Part shown: positions 5,007-19,512 of the stretch, one piece after another
Layout of the letters: each line of letters begins with the position of its first letter
Position numbering within the stretch: position 1 is the stretch's first letter
Virus record (IMG/VR): IMGVR_UViG_3300030389_000246
Span: 3,851 to 24,849 of that record
Strand: one strand, 5' to 3'
DNA from: a virus
DNA: 20,999 nt
Notes under the pieces: generated by a model
What the model saw: only the letters and a program-made list of their open reading frames with translations
Told to the model about the DNA's origin: nothing
Database searches by the model: none
Program-made: the position numbers and the translations under genes

Positions 5007-5034
5007 AACCCTAGCTTGTCATAAGGCTAGGGTT
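5007..5034. terminator. Intrinsic terminator, probably bidirectional, ending the late unit
   Basis: AACCCTAGC (5007-5015) and GCTAGGGTT (5026-5034) form a perfect 9-bp stem with a 10-base loop. On the + strand the following ATCTGTTTA is only moderately U-rich. On the - strand the stem is followed by TTTCTTT, a better U-tract. It sits between the late lysis/basic genes and the early promoter, so it separates the two transcription units. Confidence 0.75.
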
Positions 5035-5464: not shown

Positions 5465-5492
5465 AATAACCTAAAAATTCTGCTAGGTTATT
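5465..5492 (+). promoter_or_regulatory. Leader hairpin A of a repeated intercistronic element
   Basis: AATAACCTA (5465-5473) pairs with TAGGTTATT (5484-5492), 9 bp with a 10-base loop. It is followed by AATAATGAA, five AAT units (5509-5523), the ribosome site GAGG (5524-5527) and ATG 5533. The same arrangement, AACCTA-N10-TAGGTT then YTTAATAATGAA, (AAT)n, ribosome site and ATG, recurs at 6405-6469. The repeat argues that it is a functional leader and not chance. Confidence 0.6.
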
Positions 5493-5532: not shown

Positions 5533-6375
5533 ATGATAGAACTTAATATAAATGAAGAAAGTAAGCAACAACTAGCAGAAGGTGTATTTTTTGCTAAAGC
5601 AACTAAACAAAGGGTGTTAGAGCAAATACAAAGAACTTATATTACTCTAAGTTGTGCTAATAAAGATTTACCAAAAAATATGAAAGGCATTGAGGTAACT
5701 CAAATAAATTGTTATGGGGTACAACACCCATATTCAGCTTTTGTAAACTATGATCTTAGTAAAAGAAAAGCAGAGCAAATAAAAACTAAGTGGGAACAAC
5801 AGTTAAAAGATAATAACGAAACTTTTGACCCAGACAAGCATAGCCAAGTTGTAAGCAGAATGTTTACTCAGTATAATGGGGTTACTTGCTGGGAAAAAAG
5901 AGATGGCAGTTTAGAAGTTGATATGCCAGACAATATTTGTCACGTTTCTGAAAAAAATATGTGGATTGCTAAATATCATAATGTTGACATTAAGGCTTTA
6001 AAAGAATTGATTGAACTTAGAAACGCAGTCAAGGATATGCCAGTTGAAAAACCAGAGCCTAAAAACAAAAAACAAAAGTTATGGGAATCAAAACTAAAAG
6101 ATCATTTGGATTTTGTTTGGGGGAAAAATTGTCCTAAAAGAATTAACATTGAGGATATGTGGATAGGCAAAAATGGTAGGACTATGATGAAGATTGACAA
6201 GACCATTACCTGTGACCCTATATATTGCTATATGAGTGCTACTGGCACAACTTATACTAGAGGTATGTGGACTATTGACGGCAAAGTAGTTAAAGGTATT
6301 GAGGTTATGATACTTATGGAAAAAGCAGAAGCAGAATTTAAAATGAACAATAAAATTAGAAAGGAGTTGGCTTAA
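5533..6375 (+). CDS. Early protein of unknown function (280 aa)
   Basis: The start is ATG 5533, five bases after GAGG. An upstream in-frame ATG (5497) would translate the AAT repeat into poly-Asn and is rejected. The 280 residues are soluble, with no membrane segment. The N-terminal part (1-95) has a helix with QLAEGVFFAKATKQRVLEQI and a strand-rich YGVQHPYSAFVNYD region. The middle carries a GVTCWEKRDGSLEVDMPDN block. A Lys/Pro-rich linker lies near 185-200 and a C-terminal domain contains GRTMMKIDKTITCDP and YCYMSATGTTYTRGMWTIDG. I cannot assign a family. It is the largest unknown in the early region, and its 3' end forms the stop-codon hairpin 6363-6386. Confidence 0.75.
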   Translation: MIELNINEESKQQLAEGVFFAKATKQRVLEQIQRTYITLSCANKDLPKNMKGIEVTQINCYGVQHPYSAFVNYDLSKRKAEQIKTKWEQQLKDNNETFDPDKHSQVVSRMFTQYNGVTCWEKRDGSLEVDMPDNICHVSEKNMWIAKYHNVDIKALKELIELRNAVKDMPVEKPEPKNKKQKLWESKLKDHLDFVWGKNCPKRINIEDMWIGKNGRTMMKIDKTITCDPIYCYMSATGTTYTRGMWTIDGKVVKGIEVMILMEKAEAEFKMNNKIRKELA

Positions 6376-6386
6376 CAGCCAATTCC
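6363..6386 (+). terminator. Stop-codon hairpin, copy 1
   Basis: GGAGTTGGCT (6363-6372) pairs with AGCCAATTCC (6377-6386) as a 10-bp stem with one G-U pair. The 4-base loop TAAC holds the stop codon TAA of the preceding gene. TATTTTAG follows, so it may act as a weak terminator or as an RNA 3'-end protector. A second copy at 6847-6870 keeps GGAG...GCT-TAAC-AGC...TCC but swaps the inner three base pairs with compensation. Confidence 0.7.
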
Positions 6387-6404
6387 TATTTTAGGGTTTG
6401 ACAA

Positions 6405-6426
6405 AACCTAGAAAATAAATTAGGTT
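6405..6426 (+). promoter_or_regulatory. Leader hairpin B of the repeated intercistronic element
   Basis: AACCTA (6405-6410) and TAGGTT (6421-6426) with a 10-base loop match leader A at 5465. Five AAT units (6437-6451), AAGGAG (6455-6460) and ATG 6467 follow. The AAACCT segment can also pair upstream with GGGTTT (6394-6399, loop GACA), giving mutually exclusive stems. A TTGACA at 6398-6403 sits here too, but I see no convincing -10 at the right distance. Confidence 0.55.
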
Positions 6427-6466
6427 CTTAATAATGAATAATAATAATAATAACAAGGAGAAAATA

Positions 6467-6859
6467 ATGAAAGAATATAAAATAAATTATAATAATAAAG
6501 ACTACGATATATCTAAACACGATACTAGCTTTCAACTCAACATAGTTCAGAAAGATGCTTTAGATAGAGAAAGTGCATTATCAGAATTTCAAAGAAAAGA
6601 AATAAAAAAACTTATTTCTTCTGAAAATTGGTTAAAAGAAGAATTAGAAGTAGTAAATTCTGATAATCATTATTATAGAACTATTATAATAAAATTAATC
6701 AAAGCATTGTACCAATCTAATTTTTGTGATCAATTTATACAAAATGATATAGCAAAATTAAAAGGTAAATTAAACTATAGAAATGTAAACTTTATAGATT
6801 TCAATAATACTTTAGCTGATTTTATAGAAAAAGACTTTAATAACAAGGAGAGTGCTTAA
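6467..6859 (+). CDS. Early protein of unknown function (130 aa)
   Basis: ATG 6467 follows AAGGAG (6455-6460) by six bases. The upstream in-frame ATG 6434 lies in the AAT repeat and is rejected. The protein is helical and charged: KDALDRESALSEFQRKEIKK, then a long central helix (about 45-95) and an acidic C-terminus. No recognised domain, cysteine motif or membrane segment is present. It is flanked by a repeated leader hairpin on the 5' side and a stop-codon hairpin on the 3' side, exactly like the gene before it. The two genes have no obvious sequence similarity except the terminal K-E-x-A-stop encoded by the hairpin arm. Confidence 0.7.
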   Translation: MKEYKINYNNKDYDISKHDTSFQLNIVQKDALDRESALSEFQRKEIKKLISSENWLKEELEVVNSDNHYYRTIIIKLIKALYQSNFCDQFIQNDIAKLKGKLNYRNVNFIDFNNTLADFIEKDFNNKESA

Positions 6860-6870
6860 CAGCACTTTCC
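6847..6870 (+). terminator. Stop-codon hairpin, copy 2
   Basis: GGAGAGTGCT (6847-6856) pairs with AGCACTTTCC (6861-6870), 10 bp with one G-U pair, and loop TAAC (6857-6860) contains the TAA stop. Compared with copy 1 the inner triplet TTG/CAA is replaced by AGT/ACT, preserving pairing. TACTAATAATAAT and the ribosome site AAGGAG of the next gene follow directly. Confidence 0.7.
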
Positions 6871-6895
6871 TACTAATAATAATAAGGAGATATAA

Positions 6896-7186
6896 ATGAC
6901 TACACAAACAGAACTACAAAGAGCAAGGCAAATAGTAGAACATAATAAAACTTTTATACTAGATGCTATTAGCCACAGATATGCAGAACTTTTTAAGGCT
7001 TTTACAGACTATGATTTTGTCTACCACAAAGGCACAGAAGAGGAAGAGCAAGAACTTTCAACAGCAATCAATTATCTTTTAACAGAGCTACACATTACTG
7101 AAGATGATGCCAGAAATATGTTTGAAGAATACCAAGTGCAAGTTGATGACTGGAAAAACGCCTGTGGTGAAAGTGAGGATAATTAA
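6896..7186 (+). CDS. Small acidic early protein (96 aa)
   Basis: AAGGAG (6884-6889) lies six bases before ATG 6896, preceded by three AAT units. The protein is mostly helical: an amphipathic helix at 5-40 with ARQIVEHNKTFILDAISHRY, an acidic linker HKGTEEEEQELS and a C-terminal helix. The C-terminal portion (EDDARNMFEEYQVQVDDW) makes it strongly acidic. Small acidic phage proteins may mimic DNA or inhibit host factors, but no specific family is recognised. The next ATG follows its stop immediately, so the two are coupled. Confidence 0.7.
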   Translation: MTTQTELQRARQIVEHNKTFILDAISHRYAELFKAFTDYDFVYHKGTEEEEQELSTAINYLLTELHITEDDARNMFEEYQVQVDDWKNACGESEDN

Positions 7187-10178: not shown

Positions 10179-10963
10179 TAGAGCATTTTAAAAAGTTTGA
10201 TACTAAAGATAAAAAAAGTATTTTACCATTATCATTTAGTCAGCTTACAGAGTTTGCATTTAACAGAGAACGCTGGGCATTGAGAAGAATATTTGGCTAT
10301 GAGTTTGATACAAACCCAGCAATGCAAAGAGGAACTGTTGTAGAAAGTGGCTTAAATATGTGGCTTAATGGAACAGATCAGAAAGAAGCAATACATAAAA
10401 TGCTTAATGAGTATGATGATAACTGTTCTGGTTTAGCTGGTGAAAAGGTAGTTAGTGAAAGAGAAAACCTTATTCCATTATTTAATGAAGGAGTACAAAG
10501 ACTAACTAATTATGCTTTCAAATGGGATTTAATAGGTTACCAAAACAAAGTAGAAATGGATATAGAAGGAATACCATTAGTAGGTTATACAGATTTTCAC
10601 TTTGAGGATAAAAACACAAAGGAAGATTTTTACATAGACCTAAAGACTACCTTGAGAAAACCAACTGGCATTTCATATTCTCACGCAATGCAACAAAGTA
10701 TATACCATCAATGCACCAACGCAGAACAAAGATTATGGTATTTAGTTTGCAAAAAATCTGGCACAGAGTTTTATGAATATAGCTTAGACGATTACCAGAA
10801 ACCTTTGAAGATATGTAACCACATAGTCAAGGTGATGGGGTCATTTTTGCAAAAGGTAGATACCCTAGATGATGTTAAGAACTTGCTAATTCCAAACCCA
10901 GACGACTGGATATGGAAAGAGGAAGCAGTACAAAAAGCTAGAGTTGAGGTATGGGGGTATTGA
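10175..10963 (+). CDS. PD-(D/E)XK exonuclease, RecB/Cas4-like
   Basis: A 262-residue nuclease of the RecB/Cas4 (PDDEXK_1) type, expected to resect DNA ends in phage recombination/replication. The motifs are in order. R52-G53 and E57 lie in RGTVVESGL. The catalytic D140 is in GYTDFHFED, and D155-L-K157 in YIDLKTT. The family-typical QxxxY is Q173/Y177 in MQQSIYHQ. No cysteine cluster for a Cas4 iron-sulfur site is seen, so it is closer to lambda-exo/RecB style nucleases. It is coupled to the upstream micropeptide by ATGA. Its stop codon lies in the loop of a 6-bp hairpin (10954-10970). Confidence 0.85.
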   Translation: MIEHFKKFDTKDKKSILPLSFSQLTEFAFNRERWALRRIFGYEFDTNPAMQRGTVVESGLNMWLNGTDQKEAIHKMLNEYDDNCSGLAGEKVVSERENLIPLFNEGVQRLTNYAFKWDLIGYQNKVEMDIEGIPLVGYTDFHFEDKNTKEDFYIDLKTTLRKPTGISYSHAMQQSIYHQCTNAEQRLWYLVCKKSGTEFYEYSLDDYQKPLKICNHIVKVMGSFLQKVDTLDDVKNLLIPNPDDWIWKEEAVQKARVEVWGY

Positions 10964-10970
10964 TTACCCC
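10954..10970 (+). terminator. Stop-codon hairpin after the exonuclease gene
   Basis: GGGGTA (10954-10959) pairs with TACCCC (10965-10970) around the 5-base loop TTGAT, which contains the TGA stop. TTT follows. It is short but GC-rich for this genome. It may be a weak terminator or mRNA 3' protector, similar in placement to the hairpins at 6363 and 6847. Confidence 0.5.
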
Positions 10971-10977
10971 TTTACCA

Positions 10978-19490: not shown

Positions 19491-19512
19491 GGGGTGGGAA
19501 ACCACCCCTTTT
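19491..19512 (+). terminator. Intrinsic terminator after the major capsid gene
   Basis: GGGGTGG (19491-19497), GAAA tetraloop (19498-19501), CCACCCC (19502-19508) and TTTT (19509-19512). It is a perfect 7-bp all-GC-rich stem with a stable GNRA loop, the most stable short hairpin in the window. It probably truncates or protects most capsid mRNAs while some read through to the neck genes. Confidence 0.82.

Follow-up and report, generated by a model that had tools for sequence, protein, structure and literature searches.

Two adjacent early genes of an uncultured marine phage, whose proteins share no family, end in the same kind of RNA hairpin, whose loop contains the stop codon. What does such a hairpin do at the ends of unrelated genes? 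The window, i.e., the whole stretch of 20,999 nucleotides analyzed here, belongs to a 25,992-base IMG/VR virus record, and its large terminase shows 55-56% identity to those of Pelagibacter phages HTVC111P, HTVC026P, HTVC112P, and HTVC202P. The viruses that infect SAR11-type bacteria rank with the most abundant on Earth, and to our knowledge little has been learned about the swapping of their small early genes. Judged from sequence comparison, the group that carries these hairpins appears to be that of the uncultivated, Pelagibacter-phage-like (pelagiphage-type) viruses.

Two hairpins with a stop codon in the loop

The region contains the following features.
5533..6375, + strand: gene 1, 280 aa, no known family, C-terminus ...RKELA, hairpin 1 at its end
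6362..6387, + strand: hairpin 1, 5' arm 6362-6372, loop TAAC 6373-6376 with the stop TAA, 3' arm 6377-6387; 41.5 bits (covariance model)
6455..6460, + strand: ribosome site AAGGAG of gene 2, read from the sequence
6467..6859, + strand: gene 2, 130 aa, no known family, C-terminus ...NNKESA, hairpin 2 at its end
6846..6871, + strand: hairpin 2 (common type I), 5' arm 6846-6856, loop TAAC 6857-6860, 3' arm 6861-6871; 47.4 bits (covariance model)
6884..6889, + strand: ribosome site AAGGAG of gene 3, preceded by an (AAT)n leader, read from the sequence
6896..7186, + strand: gene 3, 96 aa, the first gene past hairpin 2

The core of hairpin 1 is GGAGTTGGCT-TAAC-AGCCAATTCC at 6363-6386 and that of hairpin 2 is GGAGAGTGCT-TAAC-AGCACTTTCC at 6847-6870. 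An extra outer A-T pair in each (6362/6387 and 6846/6871) brings both stems to 11 bp and -15.6 kcal/mol; the first-pass annotation, which had described two stop-codon hairpins with TAA in a TAAC loop, gave the right coordinates and stems of 10 bp. In both cases the loop TAA is the stop of a real ORF, namely gene 1 or gene 2. Neither gene matched a PHROG or Pfam family, and the two proteins have no family in common, in agreement with the initial view that the capped genes are otherwise unrelated. The TTG/CAA version of the hairpin was found only in the window and two near-identical contigs, AGT/ACT being the common form. A homologue of gene 3 in contig L019 is likewise preceded by a hairpin.

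Both hairpins rank among the strongest of the window, which holds three hairpins that reach or exceed 10 pairs and -14 kcal/mol. In 100 dinucleotide shuffles, the mean number of such hairpins was 0.08 and the maximum 1. The third one is intergenic (5007-5034, AACCCTAGC...GCTAGGGTT). It separates the lysis genes from the early genes and is the probable end of the late operon.

A covarying hairpin family in related phages

Variants of the stop-codon hairpin cap about 18 gene families (about twenty different genes) in uncultivated pelagiphage-type contigs, and the same 26-nt hairpin stands behind many unrelated ORFs. Across relatives, 43 of 879 ORF stops (4.9%) are found in hairpin loops (folding energy of -9 kcal/mol or better), versus 67 of 21,428 out-of-frame stop triplets inside ORFs (0.3%), a comparison in which related loci are not independent. 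Three hairpin types emerged from wider scans: type I (AGGAGAGTGCTTAACAGCACTTTCCT), type II (AGGAGAGTGCTTAATTGCACTCTTCT), and type III (AGAGTGCTTAACGGCACTCTTTTTT). A covariance model recovers copies in the direction of the gene, mostly at 38-53 bits. No Rfam family matched above its gathering score, BLAST searches of the element against named phages returned chance-level partial matches only, and seven named phage records, including six of cultured pelagiphages, yielded no copy of the hairpin (read over the first 30 kb in the case of HTVC023P and HTVC027P). The exact pattern AGAGTGCNTAANNGCACTYT had 54 scattered matches in genome contigs of unrelated bacteria, with no pointer to a host.

The stem changes on both arms together. 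When the inner triplet was left free, the pattern was found in 23 viral contig stretches. With three unrelated contigs left out, the triplet was complementary in all matches, and these fell nearly always on the stop of a different short ORF. When 34 distinct copies are aligned on their stops, 92.8% of the pairs are standard and changes on both arms affect 7 of 11 stem pairs, a value reached in 0 of 500 shuffles; the search patterns fixed part of the stem and many rows were found by pattern, which favors pairing at the fixed positions. A fairer scan, in which inner triplet and loop were both free, gave full pairing in 41 of 43 matches in low-GC contigs, 40 of those 41 ending an ORF, and mostly unpaired matches in GC-richer contigs. 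Five compensated triplet pairs are present (AGT/ACT, TTG/CAA, GAT/ATC, GAG/CTC, and TCA/TGG). Because relatives carry such covarying homologues, selection on the hairpin structure is supported, as had been argued from the two window copies. Among the roles suggested at first, a repeated element comes closest to the observation, in the sense that a single hairpin joint recurs where unrelated genes end. We also considered, and rejected, selection on a C-terminal peptide tag (KESA), since conservation extends to wobble bases and to the non-coding arm, and the S gives way to L, V, or other residues with compensation.

A separate stop-in-loop hairpin ends the PD-(D/E)XK nuclease gene.
10953..10971, + strand: hairpin at the end of the nuclease gene, stop TGA 10961-10963
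It is independent of hairpins 1 and 2 and is present in most orthologues and absent in some. Changes in its coding arm are matched in the non-coding arm, a G-C to C-G swap among them; pairing is kept in 85% of cells with modest covariation, in rows that were chosen for having the hairpin.

Possible terminator or 3'-end role

A hairpin followed by a U-tract is the textbook shape of a terminator, and sister contigs of the same phage group have just that, a stop-in-loop hairpin with a U-tract (AGAGTGCTTAACGGCACTCTTTTTT). The window copies share with intrinsic (Rho-independent) terminators that overlap a stop codon the GC-richer stem, the short loop, and the position of a stable hairpin at the gene end. 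They differ in that no U-tract follows the stem on the coding strand, the tails being TTCCTATTT and TTTCCTACT (TTCC/TTTCC), and in that their sequence is nearly invariant and common to unrelated genes. A terminator scan called neither window hairpin on the + strand.

A promoter- or operator-like palindrome, supported by relatives and alignment, lies directly past hairpin 1, and a second copy is located upstream of gene 1.
6398..6426, + strand: palindrome TTGACA-AACCTA-N10-TAGGTT
5465..5492, + strand: second copy, AACCTA...TAGGTT
The group-wide form is TTGACA-AACCTA-N8..11-TAGGTT, followed by an (AAT)n AAGGAG leader, and in relatives this promoter-like palindrome precedes genes at about 35 places. 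It is preceded by hairpin 1 in the window and L002 and by a canonical hairpin in L016, L029, and L024; the canonical hairpin carries a U7 tract in L016 and L029. Of the observations that point indirectly to a terminator or 3'-end function, we regard this substitution as the strongest. The first-pass annotation had linked the structure to translation termination; a special event at that step finds no support in the form proposed, since sister clades show the plain terminator shape and, ahead of the promoter-like palindrome, a canonical U7 terminator can take the place of hairpin 1.

Just past the capsid gene, the window has another hairpin (GGGGTGGGAAACCACCCC, 19491-19508), whose counterparts in HTVC111P, HTVC026P, and HTVC202P differ from it in sequence. 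The U-tracts of these post-capsid hairpins are short or absent in the window and in the cultured relatives. Because hairpins without a U-tract also follow the capsid gene in cultured relatives, protection of the 3' end may equally be the role of the window hairpins, level with terminator function.

Exchange of genes at hairpin joints

The genes on either side of the hairpin vary, and mosaic breakpoints fall at the hairpin itself. (i) L003 and L024 share an F4 gene upstream (94% identity) and the next gene downstream (99%) and differ by exactly one cassette, extra in L003, with two hairpins as its bounds. (ii) The two ends of contig 3300029319_000322 represent the versions with and without two cassettes, the F11 gene upstream being 95% identical. 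(iii) L009, L016, and L029 have the gene before the hairpin in common (94-97%), and past the hairpin L009 differs from the other two. The compared contigs overlap at the joint in AAGGAGAGTGCTTAA (about 15 nt). Gene 2 is replaced by other genes in L002 and L003, a distant homologue of gene 1 (34%) carries the AGT/ACT hairpin in L017, L112, and L122, and in some contigs two or three capped genes follow one another. A hairpin-capped homologue of gene 1 is also present in a 60-kb contig that lacks the terminase of the window and has one of the HTVC023P type (73%); the cassette thus crosses phage types.

The capped genes include the ArdC antirestriction gene. A full ArdC gene in L018 (487-1416) is capped by a GTG/CAC hairpin, and ORFs with only the ArdC-N part are capped by U-tract versions in L108, L111, and L124. 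In L100, the 5' arm is still present and the 3' arm has been lost. An ORF of L002 (3519-3740) looks chimeric, its first ~54 nt repeating the start of the next gene, and may reflect recent recombination or an assembly artefact.

At 46 distinct hairpin joints, clustering of neighbors yielded 18 families upstream and 26 downstream, and pairs with a common upstream family had different downstream families in 78% of cases at hairpin joints versus 32% at other joints. Against joints within 1 kb, the extra partner diversity at hairpins was not significant (p 0.06 and 0.27). The hairpin may therefore simply sit in a shuffled region, and a role of the hairpins as shuffling hotspots beyond their neighborhood is unsupported at 1 kb.

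Proposed role and alternatives

Taking these observations together, we consider the hairpins to be probably gene-end stem-loops (a terminator or 3'-end element) of exchangeable early-gene cassettes of uncultivated Pelagibacter-phage-like viruses. A cassette would consist of a ribosome site and a small gene; the hairpin would take its 5' arm and loop from the final codons and the stop of that gene and its 3' arm from the spacer ahead of the next one. After departure of the terminating ribosome, the RNA hairpin would fold and either end the transcript, weakly so in the window copies without a U-tract, or set and protect its 3' end; the fold would also hide the AAGGAG just upstream of the stop. 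At the DNA level, the common ~15-nt AAGGAGAGTGCTTAA might serve as a short homology by which any gene could be joined in frame, the hairpin being rebuilt at each exchange. We put forward only tentatively the idea of a self-rebuilding gene joint: because one cassette brings the 5' arm (last codons and stop) and the next brings the 3' arm, any two cassettes joined at AAGGAGAGTGCTTAA could restore the stop in frame, together with a hairpin at the gene end and a new ribosome site.

Somewhat unlikely, in our judgment, is the simpler possibility that these are plain terminators or 3'-end mRNA stabilizers which overlap the stop to save space and have spread by descent and by homologous recombination anywhere in the variable region, without a role in exchange. 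The U-tract versions in sister contigs, the gene-end hairpins with short or absent U-tracts behind the capsid gene of the window and of cultured relatives, and the nearly equal shuffling of joints within 1 kb would all fit. Against it stand the near-invariant sequence, wobble codons included, behind unrelated genes, the sharp breakpoints and whole-cassette indels that coincide exactly with the hairpin, and the occurrence of the element in two unrelated phage types.

We regard as improbable a translation-gated switch, in which a terminating ribosome on the loop stop would hold the hairpin open, so that transcription or translation of the next gene is tied to translation of the upstream one and the AAGGAG of the 5' arm is exposed or hidden. 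The stop is in the loop in nearly all copies, the 5' arm contains the Shine-Dalgarno (SD)-like AAGGAG, and at other joints the same arm is followed by an overlapping TAATG start, which keeps the initial idea of a hidden ribosome site plausible. On the other hand, a separate AAGGAG for the next gene lies about 25 nt downstream, and SD-TAATG joints with a control spacer are nearly as common (at least 120 loci with the AGTGC spacer versus 93), so that this joint is generic and a special status of its AGTGC version is rejected.

Least probable is the site of a dedicated site-specific recombinase or homing enzyme, as in an integron-like cassette array: the indels bounded by hairpins and the runs of two or three capped genes recall integron attC cassettes, where a hairpin likewise stands at the 3' end of each small gene and cassettes are gained or lost between hairpins, but the window hairpins have a short perfect stem with the stop in the loop, no integrase or transposase was seen among the 20 of about 41 window proteins scanned (the source record being incomplete), and the PD-(D/E)XK nuclease of the phage is compatible with ordinary phage recombination.

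Comparison with known systems and significance

Promoter early stem-loops (PeSLs) were reportedly treated by Arbiol in 2010 and by Comeau in 2014. As far as they are outlined in PMC4503421, PeSLs of T4-type phages are stem-loops combined with promoters; they mark gene borders of a hypervariable early region and are linked to gene shuffling. The window hairpins also lie at the borders of shuffled genes, and the first border combines a stem-loop with a promoter-like element. Compared with that outline, the window differs in phage group (the terminase is nearest to those of the Pelagibacter phages HTVC111P/026P/112P/202P and not of a T4-like myovirus), in that the putative promoter palindrome follows hairpin 1 and not hairpin 2, many borders having no promoter, and in that the stop codon is inside the loop and the 5' arm is coding. 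These differences place the window hairpins outside the PeSL family, although they appear to work like its cassettes. The target hairpins of DGRs have a GRRA-type loop. They resemble the window hairpins as short hairpins in the 3' part of a gene (PMC3240598), whereas in the window the loop is TAAC and no reverse transcriptase or template repeat was noticed.

A 26-nt cassette-end tag would allow accessory and candidate anti-defense genes to be collected directly from metagenomes, and the ArdC antirestriction gene is already among those that such a tag collects. The finding also makes it testable how a terminator-like hairpin works with a stop codon in its loop. If the self-rebuilding joint is true, it would constitute a plug-in system for accessory genes, including anti-restriction genes, across unrelated pelagiphage types.
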